This document shows, in pieces, positions 31,897 to 52,463 of a stretch of DNA of 64,000 nucleotides. Positions within the stretch are counted from its first letter, which is position 1. Each line of letters starts with the position of its first letter. Both the position numbers and the translations under genes were made by a program. The notes beneath the pieces are model-generated. The model did no database searches, was not told where the DNA came from, and saw nothing but the letters and a program-made list of their open reading frames with translations. The stretch lies in contig NZ_LR732817.1 of assembly GCF_902506195.1 (NCBI RefSeq), forward strand, positions 513,147 through 577,146, in the 5' to 3' direction. The DNA is from Citricoccus sp. K5 (GTDB lineage Bacteria; Actinomycetota; Actinomycetes; Actinomycetales; Micrococcaceae).

Positions 31897-32514
31897 TCAG
31901 CGGGCGAGCTCCGCCAGCAACTGAGCCATGTGGCCGACCGCCGGCTCCAGCACCTCGGCCATGGCCGGGTAGGCGGCATCCTCACGGCCATAGGGGTCCG
32001 GCAGGTCGATCGATTCCAGCGAGCCGCGGACCACCGCGCGGTGCCGGGCCAGGTGCCGTGCCAGGGACCGGACCAGCTCGGGCAGGTCCTCGGAAGATCC
32101 AGTGCCCGACGACGGACCGCCCCACGCCGGCAAGGTTCCGTTCTGCAGGGCCTCGGCGGACGCACCGAACTCGGTCATGGTGAAGGTCCGGTTCAACGCG
32201 CCCGGAGTGTCCCGCAGGATCCGGGCGATGTGGTCCTCGGTGGCCGCGAGGATGAGGTCCGCCCGCTGCACCGTCCGCGGATTGAGCGCTGTGGGGGAGT
32301 GGGTGCCCAGCGTCTGCAGGCCGGCGGCGCCCGGAAGCCCGTGGATCTGCTGCGGGACCGTGAGGCGGGGATTGACCTGGGTGCCCGCCGAGATGACCCG
32401 GTAGCGGCCGGGGGCCTCCTGTTCCAGCCGCTGGGCCAGCATGTGGTGGCCGTAGGCGGAACGGCAGATGTTGCCCGTGCACACGAAGAGCACCGTGGCT
32501 TGCTGATCGGTCAT
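31897..32514 (-). CDS. Low-molecular-weight protein-tyrosine phosphatase family protein
   Basis: 205 residues. The active-site loop CxxxxxR(S/T) is at the N-terminus as FVCTGNICRSAYGHHML, with the general-acid region near the C-terminus (DLPDPYGREDA, DP motif). In Gram-positives such enzymes dephosphorylate tyrosine kinases or substrates in capsule synthesis; a related fold is arsenate reductase. The start ATG 32514 is chosen because GAAGAGA precedes it and the family begins just before the active-site strand; an ATG at 32577 would add 21 residues. The gene forms the left boundary of the low-GC island. Confidence 0.88.
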   Translation of the reverse strand: MTDQQATVLFVCTGNICRSAYGHHMLAQRLEQEAPGRYRVISAGTQVNPRLTVPQQIHGLPGAAGLQTLGTHSPTALNPRTVQRADLILAATEDHIARILRDTPGALNRTFTMTEFGASAEALQNGTLPAWGGPSSGTGSSEDLPELVRSLARHLARHRAVVRGSLESIDLPDPYGREDAAYPAMAEVLEPAVGHMAQLLAELAR

Positions 32515-32999
32515 TCTCTTCAGGGAGCCTTTCGCAGGTGACGGGTGCAACTGTCCATGGTAGTGAACGGGGAGCATATCCTCGCATCCACCTGATCCAG
32601 CGGCCTGATGTCCAGTGCGGTCTCACCGTGACAGAGGGCCGGATTCGTGGTTCCTCAGATATCGCCCCCCTTCACCGGACAGATCATGGGATGGGTCCTA
32701 CGGACACTGTTTGAGGGCTGGTCCCGTTCGACCAGGTCAGCATCGGGTGTGCCCCGTAATGGTTCCCCTCACGGGACGGGCGGCAGTGTGCTTCTCCCGA
32801 CCGACCATTCTGTGTCGGAGGTCGGCGGCTGCCAGAACGACTACCCTCGGATTTGGCGGAGAAACCTGCCGACCAAGCGTTGCGCGACCGACCTGCTTGC
32901 CGCGGATGGACTGCTCGACCAAATGAAGTGGACTGGTGTGTCGTGAGTATTGAATCGGAGCGACGGTTGGCCGTCGACGGGCCCAGGGCTTGAGTTCGC
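32515..32999. other. Gene-poor left flank of the low-GC island
   Basis: 485 bp without a supportable gene. Short frames exist (e.g. 32647-32946, 99 codons) but show neither family similarity nor a ribosome-binding site. A hairpin CGACGG-TTGG-CCGTCG (32961-32976) ends 23 bp before the first island gene. GC falls visibly from the phosphatase side towards the island. No integrase, transposase or inverted terminal repeat is seen. Confidence 0.4.
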
Positions 33000-33674
33000 A
33001 TGTCCGACGAAGTTAGGAACTTGGATGATCGGCAGAAGCGTATCTTTGAAGCCCTAGTGGAAAAGGAGCGTGCTGATCTCGCGGACTTGTATCGTTCCGC
33101 GCTTGATCTGCTTGCCTCGGCACCCGAGGAAAACACTCAGCGAACGCGGATCTCGTACATATGCCACTCGATGCGTGAGGTCATGAACCGTGTGCTCGGA
33201 GCCATGGGAAACAGCGCCAGCCCCAGGATCAGGCCTTCGACCGATGACCAGGTTCAGGTGCTTCCGAACGTTGTCGCGCAATACCCAGACCTAGCCCTCG
33301 ACGCGGAAGGCGAATCGATTCCGGTTCCGCAGGCCGTTGCCGAAATGTTCGACAAACTGATCAAGACCGCCATCCAGGAGAAGCGCCGAAGCCGGGATGA
33401 TGTTGCGGCCTTGCTCACAGACGACGACAACAGCGAGCATGCCGCCGTGACGCGCTGGATCGAATCACGGACGTTCTTCGTGAAGTGGGCGCACCTGCAC
33501 GGCACGCATATGGACGTGTCTGAACTGCCTGGAGATGACGTGATAAGAGACCACATCAACGTATTCGACGAGTTGTTCGACGGCGTCATCACCGGCTTCT
33601 TCACGCTCAGCCATTCGATCGAGGATCTGCTTGCCGAGATCAACGCTCCAGTGATGGAGAGCGGTGATGAATAA
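33000..33674 (+). CDS. Island gene A: predicted all-helical protein of unknown function
   Basis: 224 residues. Predicted almost entirely helical, acidic, no signal or membrane segment, no Walker motif. Notable stretches are RISYICHSMREVMNRVLG (residues 50-67, containing R-x5-H as in HEPN-type helical domains) and WIESRTFFVKWAHLHG (about residues 151-166). I do not recognise a named family; HEPN relationship is only a suggestion. No clear ribosome-binding site precedes the ATG. It overlaps the following 958-residue gene by 11 bp, so both are surely one operon. Codon use is mixed at the third position, unlike the strongly GC-ending housekeeping genes, pointing to horizontal acquisition. Confidence 0.75.
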   Translation: MSDEVRNLDDRQKRIFEALVEKERADLADLYRSALDLLASAPEENTQRTRISYICHSMREVMNRVLGAMGNSASPRIRPSTDDQVQVLPNVVAQYPDLALDAEGESIPVPQAVAEMFDKLIKTAIQEKRRSRDDVAALLTDDDNSEHAAVTRWIESRTFFVKWAHLHGTHMDVSELPGDDVIRDHINVFDELFDGVITGFFTLSHSIEDLLAEINAPVMESGDE

Positions 33675-36540
33675 GTTCAAAGCGCCGACTTCCGCGGACG
33701 TCAACGCAACACTTCTGAAGGTTCCGACTCTTCAACTTCGTCGAGTGTTCTACGAAGGTCTGCTAAACCCCCTTTGGGTCAAGCCGCTGTGCGAGGCCGG
33801 CGCGTTCTCATCGCCACCTGAGCCACAGGCGACCGACGACGGCTACGTACGCGACGTCTACTGGCCCGAGCTCTCTTACTTGAGCCGAGTTGCCTCCGTG
33901 GTTCCGGCTGATGTCGTGGACGTGCTGCTTCGCCTCAAAAACAGTAACAACGCGTGGGTGCGGCGAGCGGTCTTCGAGATCGGCGTGAAAATCCCGGCCA
34001 ATGAGGGCAAACGACTTCGACCTCTATTAGAGGCCTGGAAGACGACGGGTTTTAGCTGGCGGACTGATCCGGGCGAGCTTGTTTCATTCGCGATCACGCT
34101 TCTCGAGGGTGGGGAATCGAAGACCGGGCGTTGGCTTACCAACCTGCTCTTCGAGCCGCGGGCGCCGAAGACAGAGGGCCCCTTGAAGAAGCCGCACGTG
34201 GAGCTGGAGGAGTACTGGTACCAAAAGGGGCTGCCGAGGGTGTTGCCGGCGCTCGGGGACGATGCCCTCAAAGCAGCCACGGGTTGGCTCGCGAAGTATG
34301 CACAGTTTGCTGGTCACTCAGGCAAGGGGCATGACTTCAGCGGCATGATCCGACCATCAATCCGAGAACGCCGTGATGGCCATCCGGATATTGAACATGC
34401 GCTCGTCGACGCTGTGCGTGACCTTGCCGTTCCAGCGATGTTGAGTGATCCGGAAGCCACGCTGGAGATACTTCTGCGTCCCGGAGTGCAACTCGTACGA
34501 AAGATAGGTTTGTTTGCGGTTGGCGAGGCGCTTCGTCAACGTGTTGAAGAGGGCAATGTCGCGACGTACCTGTCTGGAGTGGCCGAGCGACTCCTCGGCG
34601 ATACCGGGTCCGACAACGAATACCTGAGAGTCGAGTACGCCGAGTTGGCACAGGCAGTGGCAAAGGTTGAACCCCAAGCGCTGAATGTCATCAACGAGTT
34701 CATTGCCGCTGCCTACGAAGAAGACCTCAGGTGGATGAGAGAGCGGCTGACCGAGGAGGACGCCGCAGGAGACGATTCTGAAGCGCAGATCGTCGAACGA
34801 GCCGACCGATACAAGCATCACTGGCTGTCGACAATAGGCGCGGAGGCACTTCCGCCACAGTTGCGTGACGCCTTGTCGTCATTGAATGACAGATTCGGTT
34901 TGATTGGGGATGCACTTACTCCGTTAGGTATGGTCACGAGCTGGACGGGCCCGAATCCCTACCTGAGCCAGAACGAGATGGCGGTGGTTAGTCCGCAAGA
35001 GCTCGTTGCTCAGCTGTCTAGTTGGCATGACACTGGAGATGGCTGGGGCCCAGAGCCATCTCACGAAGGCCAAGGTAGAGAGTTGTCTGCACTTCTCACC
35101 ACGAATCCGCTCGCTCTCTCGGGAGTGAATGACCTCATGCTCCAACTGAGGCCGACGTACCTTCGGGCGATCGTCCGAGGATGGGCGGCAGCGCTCAAGG
35201 CAGACCTGGAGCTCGACTGGATGCAGGTCGCCAATCTGATTCGGGACGTCCTCGAGCACGAGAATGAGTCGTCTTTTCCAGTTGAGGGGAGAGACTTCGA
35301 CGATGACAAGGACTTCCGCGGAGCTAAACGTGCCGCCGTTGGACTGCTCGTCGAATTGGTAAAGGTGCGTAAGGGCGTAACGATTCCCACCGAATCCGTG
35401 CGTAAGTTCGCAGAGCTGCTCATCGAGCAAGCAGAGGATGACGAAGCGTGGGCGGAATACGACTCCTACGAGCGGGGCGAGGATACTGGGGACCCGCTCA
35501 CCATGTCACTCAACTGGCAGTGGCCTGAACGGCTTCGTGGCCTCTTTCACCTCGCCCTGCGCAAAGAAGACTCCCCGTGGAAGAAAGACGCGTTCTCAGT
35601 GCTAGAGGTGGAGTTGGACCGTCCGGATGAGCATGGCGCGGGTCGTGCTGTGCTAGGAGAGAATCTCGGTCGAATGTATAACCACGCATTCGAATGGTTG
35701 ACTTCGCGCTCGAAAGAGTTCTTCGGATCTGTAGAGGGAATTATTGTTCCTCAACAGATTGCCCTCACGACGGCCATGGCAATGCACCACTACCACCGAG
35801 ATCTGTACGACCTGCTGGCCCCGTCACTGGCCGCAGCGATCGAGATCGGGGACAACCTGGTGAGTGGATGGCGCACCGACTCGGACCCGCTCCAGCGCAT
35901 TGGGGAGTGGGCCACTAATGCGATCGTCTTCGGACACAAGACGATCGACGATCCAGTCGCAAATGCGTTCTTTACGAAAACGCCCGCGACCGTACGGGGC
36001 GAAGCAATCGGAAAGATTGCGTGGTCGTTTTTCCATGCAGAGAACGTTGATGATGTGATTCGCGATCGCTTTGCTAAGTTCCTTGACGACCGGATAGCTC
36101 ACGTGGCCGCCCACCCTGAGGACGGCGCGGAACTTACCGGCCTCCATTGGATCGCTAAGGGTGGCAAGTTCTCAACCGAGTGGTGGCTTCTTCGGCTGCG
36201 GCGAGCATTAGAGCTCAACCCAGACATTGCCACGGAGCGGCACATGATCGGCGCCGAACTTGGGAAAGCTTCGAGCGTCGACCCCGGGAATGCGCTAGCG
36301 GTGCTGCAGCTGCTCCTAGCAGGACGCGACGAAGACGGGATGGCTTCGTTCGATCTCACTCGACATGCGGTGCCAAGGGTGATATCAAACGCTCTACAGT
36401 CCGGGGATGACGACCTGCGACAAGAAGCTGATCGATACATGAACGAGCTTGGCGCGAAAGGCAATTTGGGTCTCGAAGCGGAGGTGCTCGCGATTCTCGA
36501 GCAGGAAGTCACGTTCCAATACCTTGACGAGGAGTCCTGA
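33664..36540 (+). CDS. Island gene B: large (958 aa) helical-repeat protein of unknown function
   Basis: 958 residues (957 if ATG 33667 is used instead of GTG 33664). No signal peptide, membrane helix, Walker A or nuclease motif was seen. The sequence is a long series of amphipathic helices with conserved-looking Leu/Trp/Arg spacing, suggesting an alpha-solenoid (HEAT-like) fold. A region around residues 610-680 (LNWQWPERLRGLFHLALRKE ... GAGRAVLGENLGRMY) resembles the C-terminal solenoid of large defence-associated NTPase or SIR2 proteins, by memory only. It overlaps gene A by 11 bp. Lower GC than neighbours (one counted line, 34501-34560, is 31/60). Possible role: sensor or scaffold working with gene A. 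Function not assigned. Confidence 0.75.
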   Translation: MMNKFKAPTSADVNATLLKVPTLQLRRVFYEGLLNPLWVKPLCEAGAFSSPPEPQATDDGYVRDVYWPELSYLSRVASVVPADVVDVLLRLKNSNNAWVRRAVFEIGVKIPANEGKRLRPLLEAWKTTGFSWRTDPGELVSFAITLLEGGESKTGRWLTNLLFEPRAPKTEGPLKKPHVELEEYWYQKGLPRVLPALGDDALKAATGWLAKYAQFAGHSGKGHDFSGMIRPSIRERRDGHPDIEHALVDAVRDLAVPAMLSDPEATLEILLRPGVQLVRKIGLFAVGEALRQRVEEGNVATYLSGVAERLLGDTGSDNEYLRVEYAELAQAVAKVEPQALNVINEFIAAAYEEDLRWMRERLTEEDAAGDDSEAQIVERADRYKHHWLSTIGAEALPPQLRDALSSLNDRFGLIGDALTPLGMVTSWTGPNPYLSQNEMAVVSPQELVAQLSSWHDTGDGWGPEPSHEGQGRELSALLTTNPLALSGVNDLMLQLRPTYLRAIVRGWAAALKADLELDWMQVANLIRDVLEHENESSFPVEGRDFDDDKDFRGAKRAAVGLLVELVKVRKGVTIPTESVRKFAELLIEQAEDDEAWAEYDSYERGEDTGDPLTMSLNWQWPERLRGLFHLALRKEDSPWKKDAFSVLEVELDRPDEHGAGRAVLGENLGRMYNHAFEWLTSRSKEFFGSVEGIIVPQQIALTTAMAMHHYHRDLYDLLAPSLAAAIEIGDNLVSGWRTDSDPLQRIGEWATNAIVFGHKTIDDPVANAFFTKTPATVRGEAIGKIAWSFFHAENVDDVIRDRFAKFLDDRIAHVAAHPEDGAELTGLHWIAKGGKFSTEWWLLRLRRALELNPDIATERHMIGAELGKASSVDPGNALAVLQLLLAGRDEDGMASFDLTRHAVPRVISNALQSGDDDLRQEADRYMNELGAKGNLGLEAEVLAILEQEVTFQYLDEES

Positions 36541-36828
36541 CCAGCGGACCGGTCCGCGGAAACACCGAGATAGGGTTCGAGTCCTAGGCCTTCCTGTATG
36601 GGGATCCTGTTGCGGGACGGATTGGCAGTTCAGGCGAACGTCCTATCCAGTATTCTCCCGGCGTCATGGTTTCCAATGAAGGTGATTGTTGTCGTCAACC
36701 GAAGCGTTGCCTTTGGTCAACACCAGCACGAACATCGGCCACCACGGCGTTCATGACAGGTCCATCGCCGTCGGCAGACTGGTGGCGGAATGCCCCTCAC
36801 GCAGGGCTGAATATCCCGATGTGCCAGC
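36541..36828. other. Right flank of the low-GC island
   Basis: 288 bp without a supportable gene. It begins with a 14-bp palindrome GCGGACCGGTCCGC (36544-36557) 3 bp after the gene B stop, a possible terminator. A T-arm-like string GGTTCGAGTCC lies at 36574-36584, but no tRNA folds around it. GC rises again towards tatD. Confidence 0.4.
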
Positions 36829-37857
36829 ATGGAGGACATGGCCTCCGAAACACCCACACCGTCCGCCGAAGCCGAGAGCACCGTCCCTGAGGCGTACCGG
36901 CCGGCCCCGGCCGCCGACGAGGCCGCCGGCCGATCCGGCGACCCGGCTACCGACGCGGGCGAGACGAACGTCTCGGGAGATGGCCGTCGTCGTGAACCGA
37001 CGGAGGAGAAGTCCAAGCGCCAGCGTCGGCTGGAGTATCCGCCGGCGCCCGAGCCGCTGGGGGTGTCCGTGGTGGACAACCACACCCACCTGGACTTCCG
37101 TGACGGCCTGATTTCTGTGGACGTGCACCAGGCGATGGACGCCGCGGCCGCCGTCGGGGTCGCCGGGGCCATCCAGGTGGGCTGTGACGTGGAGTCGGCG
37201 CGCTTCACCATCGAGGCCATCGAGGCCGAGCCCCGGCTGCTGGGGGCCGTGGCCATCCACCCCAACGACGCCGCCCGGCTGGCCTCCCGCGGCCACCTGG
37301 ACGCCGCGCTGGCAGAGATCGAGACGCTCGCGGCCCACCCCCGGGTGTGCGCAGTGGGGGAGACCGGCCTCGACTACTACCGCACGGGCCCCGAGGGGGT
37401 GGAGGACCAGCAGGAGGCGTTCCGCTGGCACCTGGACCTGGCGCACCGGTTGGGCAAGGCCGTGCAGATCCACGATCGGGACGCCCATGAGGACGTGGTC
37501 CGGATCCTCCTGGACACCCCGCAGCGCCCGGACCGGGTGGTGTTCCACTGCTTCTCCGGTGATGTGGACCTCGCCCGGATCTGCAACGAGCACGGCTGGT
37601 ACATGTCCTTCGCCGGCCCCGTGACCTTCAAGGCCAATGACGGCCTGCGCGCGGCGCTGGCCGAGGCCCGCGAGGACCTGCTCCTGGTGGAGACCGACGC
37701 TCCCTTCCTGACCCCGCACCCGTGGCGGGGCCGCCCCAACGCGCCCTACCTGGTGCCGCTCACCCTGCGCGGCATGGCGGAGACCCGCGGGCTGGAGGCG
37801 GACGCGCTGGCGGCGGCTGTGGCGAACAACACCCGGCGCGTCTACGGGGACTTCTGA
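36829..37857 (+). CDS. TatD family metal-dependent hydrolase (3'-5' DNA exonuclease type)
   Basis: 342 residues. TIM-barrel metallo-hydrolase; relatives are Mg2+-dependent 3'-5' exonucleases on single-stranded DNA. Metal ligands are all visible: DNHTHLD (HxH), Glu in GETGLDYY, His in QIHDRDAHEDV, His in FHCFSG and Asp in VETDAPFLTPHPWRGRPN. A polar, Arg/Glu-rich extension of about 75 residues precedes the barrel. Starts at 36829 and 36838 (both ATG) are possible; neither has a well-spaced ribosome-binding site. The order tatD-rpf-rsmA-ispE-ABC-F is conserved in Micrococcaceae. Confidence 0.92.
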   Translation: MEDMASETPTPSAEAESTVPEAYRPAPAADEAAGRSGDPATDAGETNVSGDGRRREPTEEKSKRQRRLEYPPAPEPLGVSVVDNHTHLDFRDGLISVDVHQAMDAAAAVGVAGAIQVGCDVESARFTIEAIEAEPRLLGAVAIHPNDAARLASRGHLDAALAEIETLAAHPRVCAVGETGLDYYRTGPEGVEDQQEAFRWHLDLAHRLGKAVQIHDRDAHEDVVRILLDTPQRPDRVVFHCFSGDVDLARICNEHGWYMSFAGPVTFKANDGLRAALAEAREDLLLVETDAPFLTPHPWRGRPNAPYLVPLTLRGMAETRGLEADALAAAVANNTRRVYGDF

Positions 37858-52388: not shown

Positions 52389-52463
52389 TCCGCCCTGGTG
52401 TAACGGCAGCACGCCAGCCTTTGGAGCTGTGCAGTATAGGTTCGAATCCTATGGGCGGAACCA
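52389..52463 (+). tRNA. tRNA-Gln (anticodon UUG), CCA encoded
   Basis: Cloverleaf folds completely: acceptor TCCGCCC/GGGCGGA, D-arm GTGT...GCAC, anticodon stem CCAGC/GCTGT (one C-U mismatch at the base), loop CTTTGGA giving TTG, a five-base variable loop, and a perfect T-arm ATAGG-TTCGAAT-CCTAT. Discriminator A is followed by genomic CCA (52461-52463). In relatives tRNA-Gln follows the ABC-F gene and precedes glmU; here catabolic and LuxR genes flank it, so the site may have received insertions. Confidence 0.95.

Follow-up and report, generated by a model that had tools for sequence, protein, structure and literature searches.

A two-gene island between a phosphatase gene and tatD

The stretch analysed here (the window) is 64,000 nucleotides of Citricoccus sp. 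K5, positions 513,147 to 577,146 of contig NZ_LR732817.1. Between two neighbours that we take from their sequence to be a phosphatase gene (31897-32577) and tatD (36829-37857) lie two genes, called A and B below, which are candidates for an antiphage module. Gene A (33000..33674, + strand) starts with ATG and encodes an all-helical protein of 224 aa. Gene B (33664..36540, + strand) starts with GTG, with an in-frame ATG at 33667, and encodes 958 aa that form a HEAT/armadillo-like alpha-solenoid according to a PADLOC Dsr1 match, hhalign and a fold search. The overlap of 11 bp (33664..33674, + strand) is compatible with translational coupling.

An earlier note, made from the DNA letters alone, had described two genes overlapping by 11 bp at this position and poorer in GC than their surroundings. 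Open reading frame (ORF) coordinates confirm the former. The latter also holds, as GC content is 56.9% in A and 58.3% in B versus 70-74% in eight nearby genes (computed in the correct frame). A mechanical pick across the window gave 47 non-overlapping ORFs of 150 aa or more; among these, B (0.653) and A (0.702) have the two lowest third-position GC values (mean 0.865, sd 0.067).

The gene tatD was found in eight of eight genomes of the genus. The region around it was compared in seven congeners by placing the window's neighbour proteins on each. In five of them (G002, G003, G004, G006 and G007) the junction of the phosphatase and tatD genes is closed, their aligned coding parts lying 158-265 bp apart; one (G005) stands outside the slot count, as no phosphatase was found in the region fetched. 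In the remaining congener, G001, there is a gap of about 3 kb (L032:7451-10339; GC 61-66%), which contains an IS256-like transposase (judged by eye), a TetR-like gene and a partial CPBP-like gene. DNA homology between G001 and the window ends at 32538 and restarts at 36818, so two different cargos share one slot. The interval is thus variable among congeners, as the earlier note had proposed to check, and the slot seems to be a hotspot of insertion. The foreign interval itself runs from about 32539 to 36817 (no strand assigned); the island had been given as 32515-36828, and its start moves slightly rightward on the G001 breakpoints.

Neither end of the foreign interval is marked by standout repeats, a tRNA or an Rfam RNA. 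Immediately 3' of B, at window positions 36574-36584, there is a string resembling the T-arm of a tRNA, GGTTCGAGTCC. ARAGORN called no tRNA there; its sole call in the window is a tRNA-Gln at 52389. On the phosphatase side of the slot the window shares 92% DNA identity with G001 and 75% with G002, and on the tatD side the order is reversed (G001 83%, G002 93%). These opposite affinities hint at recombination across the slot.

Gene B is related to the sensor half of DSR1

No Pfam or NCBIfam family was reached by B. In PADLOC, residues 423-718 (34930..35817, + strand) match positions 725-1009 of the 1227-column Dsr1 profile (E 5.9e-6). In some relatives A and B form one protein, and two of these fused proteins match Dsr1 more strongly (L028, E 4.8e-28; L027, E 5.1e-12). 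An alignment of five B sequences against five SIR2-solenoid proteins reached 96.6% in hhalign (E 5.8e-10), and five fused relatives reached 99.5% (E 4e-23) over 859 columns. The latter alignment spans positions 180-1121 against 269-1172 of 1180, that is, the whole region following SIR2. As hhalign controls, the columns of the B alignment were shuffled 20 times (at most 0.4%) and the alignment was reversed (0.2%); for a three-row fused alignment, 20 shuffles gave at most 0.5% and reversal 0.8%, with reversed B at 0.1%. In addition, a profile search with B retrieved the SIR2-solenoid protein G326 unprompted (E 1.2e-5). Judged by these profile comparisons, B is homologous to the C-terminal solenoid that lies behind SIR2 in DSR1-type proteins.

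The earlier note had likened B to the C-terminal solenoids of defence NTPases. The defence-protein solenoid is borne out, while the NTPase gives way to a defence sirtuin, DSR1. No profile search placed A or B in a housekeeping family, and in the PADLOC check that the note had suggested part of B matched Dsr1 and A matched none of the models.

Gene A occupies the place of the sirtuin effector

Protein A stands where the SIR2 effector stands in DSR1. It belongs to no Pfam or NCBIfam family; its best sub-threshold matches were Vhr1 (E 0.16) and phrog_8421 (E 0.03). The pair had been described as unknown helical proteins, which remains apt for A; B is no orphan, since it joins the DSR1 solenoid.

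The sirtuin motifs GAGxS and TTNxD are present in all four DSR1-like proteins analysed and in G326. They occur in no A protein, nor in the first 300 residues of any fused relative, and a profile of A showed no similarity to a SIR2 profile (0.1%, hhalign). Across 10 aligned relatives, L19, H56, R59, E60 and H165 of A are invariant. The A domains of relatives are as low as 18-25% identical to that of the window, yet the H, R, E and H are retained. The motif H56-x-x-R59-E60 (codons at 33165..33179, + strand) lies in the third predicted helix, and the codon of the second invariant histidine, H165, is at 33492..33494 (+ strand).

The chemistry of A is thus predicted to differ from that of a sirtuin, and depletion of NAD+ upon infection is not expected, because SIR2 is absent. 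HEPN domains, such as the AbiA C-terminus and DUF4145, are the comparison family for A. When R-x(4-6)-H was sought, an R-x5-H ending at H56 was found in the window, L002, L003 (by eye), L004, L027 and L067 and was absent from L005, L025, L028, L066 and L069. An HEPN-type RNase is a first guess at the chemistry of A that we would sooner bet against than on. From its position and conserved residues, A is probably an undescribed, non-sirtuin helical effector exchanged for SIR2.

Fused and split forms

Thirteen loci carry relatives of the pair. A and B are intact in 11, the others being a remnant (G268) and a contig that ends just upstream of B (G796). The two are fused in six intact loci (L003, L005, L027, L028, L066 and L069) and are adjacent genes in five (the window, L002, L004, L025 and L067). 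Four of the five adjacent pairs overlap, three of them with an uncertain start codon for B, and in L025 the ORFs are separated by 6 bp. Proteins that are fused elsewhere generally act together (the Rosetta-stone argument), and by this argument A and B do so. A maximum-likelihood tree built from 18 solenoids nests the Micromonospora fusion among split pairs. Its starred branches require the fused label to change three times, and fusion or fission therefore occurred more than once.

Distribution and mobility

With B as sole query, a pattern scan of a species-genome collection, which detects close relatives only, found three: one in Knoellia flava at 74% identity, one in Micromonospora alfalfae at 64% and one in Psychromicrobium xiongbiense at 56%. 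The Micromonospora locus has A and B in a single ORF of 1205 aa. Profile searches added G209, G681, G670, G796, G841, G791 and G932. A plasmid of Streptomyces sp. NBC_00212 encodes a fused protein of 1090 aa; in a second Streptomyces plasmid the match covers 94 residues only. In one Streptomyces plasmid, genes for TniB, a Mu-type transposase and a TnsA-like protein lie right behind the fused relative (L005:10840-15482), which is possibly Tn7-like cargo.

Presence is patchy. Among 59 near relatives B was found in its own genome only, and the other 58, including the seven congeners, have no relative of it; this and the closed junctions speak for the earlier note's reading. Within the order, seven of 396 genomes, the window's own counted, gave matches, among them two by chance (G121 and G370), the remnant in G268 and the SIR2 protein in G326. 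Corresponding counts were 4/394 in the class and, with G670 itself counted, 4/150 in the family of G670. A two-row A profile found 1/198 genomes in the phylum and missed the window's own genome, and a six-row fused profile found 9/296 in the class, SIR2 proteins among them. No relative was found in phage sequences or IMG/VR.

Defence genes near relatives

Neighbours of the relatives were picked by eye and scanned with PADLOC. Strong defence genes flank four. L004 has Shedu and a type I restriction enzyme nearby, L026 both HmaA and HmaB, L027 AbiEii together with the methylase and specificity subunits of a type I enzyme, and L069 PDC-S19 along with a methylase that is DrmMI/type IIG-like. In L026 (G268) a 138-residue C-terminal remnant of B (L026:9521-9934) lies next to the hma genes and a transposase-like ORF, and is apparently the decayed trace of an A-B system within a defence island. 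Weaker cases are an Mrr-type nuclease in L002 (Pfam E 3.2e-13; PDC-S02 1.1e-9) and, in L067, a trypsin domain that aligns with the start of Avs1b (E 1.2e-6). Strong defence neighbours thus occur at four of the 11 relatives with flanks, or six when weak ones are included (L062 and the window left out).

For the window, L003, L005, L025, L028, L066 and L067, 33 neighbours were scanned jointly; 54 families were matched, 25 of which were listed. Among the matches listed were HTH, TnsB, GlgB-like and QatD (TatD-like) models, whose loci were assigned by eye, together with a mad2 match that has no locus assigned; 41 families were matched by a single group II intron-type protein in L025. No defence gene was recognised in the scanned flanks of L003, L005, L025, L028 and L066.

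The control consisted of 12 stretches at one-third or two-thirds points of contigs from nine genomes, with the six genes nearest each midpoint (72 genes). Eleven families were matched and none was restriction-modification, Shedu, AbiE or Hma (0/12 stretches). The matches included mad3 (5.4e-30), subtilase (3e-23), AriA (9.9e-12), PDC-M72A (1.6e-11), a desaturase model and, at up to 1.3e-6, models of mad8, IetS and CARF. As the control itself has such weaker generic matches, it is not zero once matches as weak as those of L002 and L067 are counted. With fewer genes per stretch, not picked by eye, it makes the comparison indicative.

Two of these loci have other features near the split pair. In L067 (568-4552) the trypsin-domain protein has 1205 aa and is accompanied by a small companion, and in L025 (9358-11319) the pair of G209 has as neighbours a reverse transcriptase of group II intron type and a transposase-like ORF.

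A proposed role in phage defence and its alternatives

Taken together, homology, domain exchange, linkage, mobility and, in part of the relatives, defence context suggest that A-B is a horizontally acquired DSR1-like antiphage module with B as sensor and A as an exchanged, non-sirtuin effector (probability roughly 0.62). That the pair is an antiphage system of some kind is very probable, and it may stop phages in a new way. From the homology between B and the matching half of DSR1 we infer that B senses and A executes. B would keep A inactive until it binds a phage protein, by analogy with the DSR2 C-terminal domain, which binds tail tube protein. This binding would free A to attack a target in the infected cell through the invariant His56, Arg59, Glu60 and His165, and phage growth would stop.

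Overlapping small and large genes on foreign DNA, with A in the effector position, would also suit a toxin-antitoxin-like addiction pair in which B merely masks a small toxin and no phage is sensed. However, an antitoxin tends to be the small and labile member of such a pair, and B is large. Moreover, A and B are one chain in 6/11 loci, which could not serve a labile antitoxin, and the kinship of B is with the sensor half of a phage-defence protein; an addiction pair is therefore improbable. It is still less probable that this is an ordinary actinobacterial helical pair with a cellular, non-immune role that happens to be mobile. Five relatives indeed have scanned flanks without a recognised defence gene, but such a role fits poorly with presence in 1/59 near relatives and 7/396 genomes of the order (four of these being chance, SIR2 or remnant), with closed sites in congeners, and with strong defence genes beside four relatives, of kinds seen in 0/12 control stretches.

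Another alternative concerns A itself, which might be non-enzymatic, acting in dimerisation or nucleic-acid binding, while B recruits a separate effector and the module regulates rather than kills. A matched no Pfam family, and the HEPN domain of AbiA is described as serving dimerisation, with an R-x-H motif dispensable for defence (PMC11077055). Against this, A occupies the position of an enzyme in DSR1, and its H, R, E and H are invariant despite the low identity of some A domains to that of the window. A non-enzymatic A is thus rather unlikely, and the DSR1-like module with A as effector is preferred.

Relation to known systems

The pair resembles DSR1 in having the same solenoid along its length after an N-terminal domain, in total size (A plus B 1182 aa, DSR1-like proteins analysed 1163-1212 aa) and in patchy distribution. 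It differs in its N-terminus, which in DSR1 is a SIR2 domain, and in being two genes where DSR1 is one polypeptide; the relatives with one ORF carry A, not SIR2. In DSR2, as described in PMC10973363, the C-terminal domain senses the tail tube protein of the phage, whereupon SIR2 destroys NAD+; the same account has the DSR1 and DSR2 C-termini sharing little sequence. The proposed layout of A-B, with an effector in front and a helical sensor behind, is shared with DSR2 (PMC10973363), whose SIR2 it lacks.

Among the PADLOC matches only Dsr1 models appeared, in a collection that presumably includes a Dsr2 model, and no known PADLOC antiphage system had all of its parts matched. Searches of the open literature, with subscription papers mostly outside this scope, listed no paper whose title or abstract opening deals with a DSR1 solenoid that lacks SIR2 or is encoded by two genes.

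In NLR/Avs proteins a sensor is coupled to different effectors. If the proposed role is right, the DSR1 solenoid would likewise be a general phage sensor coupled by evolution to various effectors, one of them a domain unmatched by Pfam, NCBIfam and PADLOC. The split form would make sensor and effector separable for purification, exchange and assay, and phage recognition by the DSR1 class testable without NADase toxicity.

A third N-terminal domain on the same solenoid

Two further proteins, G604 (1050 aa, L080:6995-10207) and G543 (1087 aa, L081:7446-11309), carry the same solenoid behind another helical-looking domain with the motif R-A-V-H. Their solenoid aligns with the fused family at 99.5% (E 2.6e-23) and directly with DSR1 at only 12.6%. 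G543 reads RGVANRAVH, resembling the motif of the DUF4145 proteins compared (for example, RRIANTAVH). In the solenoid tree a 100/100 branch sets the four SIR2 rows on one side and G604 and G543 on another, with long branches meeting there.

There is about an even chance that DSR1-type sensors are modular, with at least three N-termini (SIR2, A and the R-A-V-H type) in Actinomycetota, and that A is an immune effector able to act in trans as its own protein, sensor and killer being separable. In G130 (L060:5347-8924) a SIR2 ORF (581 aa) overlaps a Dsr1-solenoid ORF (723 aa) in two reading frames, apparently a split or frameshifted DSR1. By eye, the L081 protein has transposase-like and TIR-like ORFs in its vicinity.
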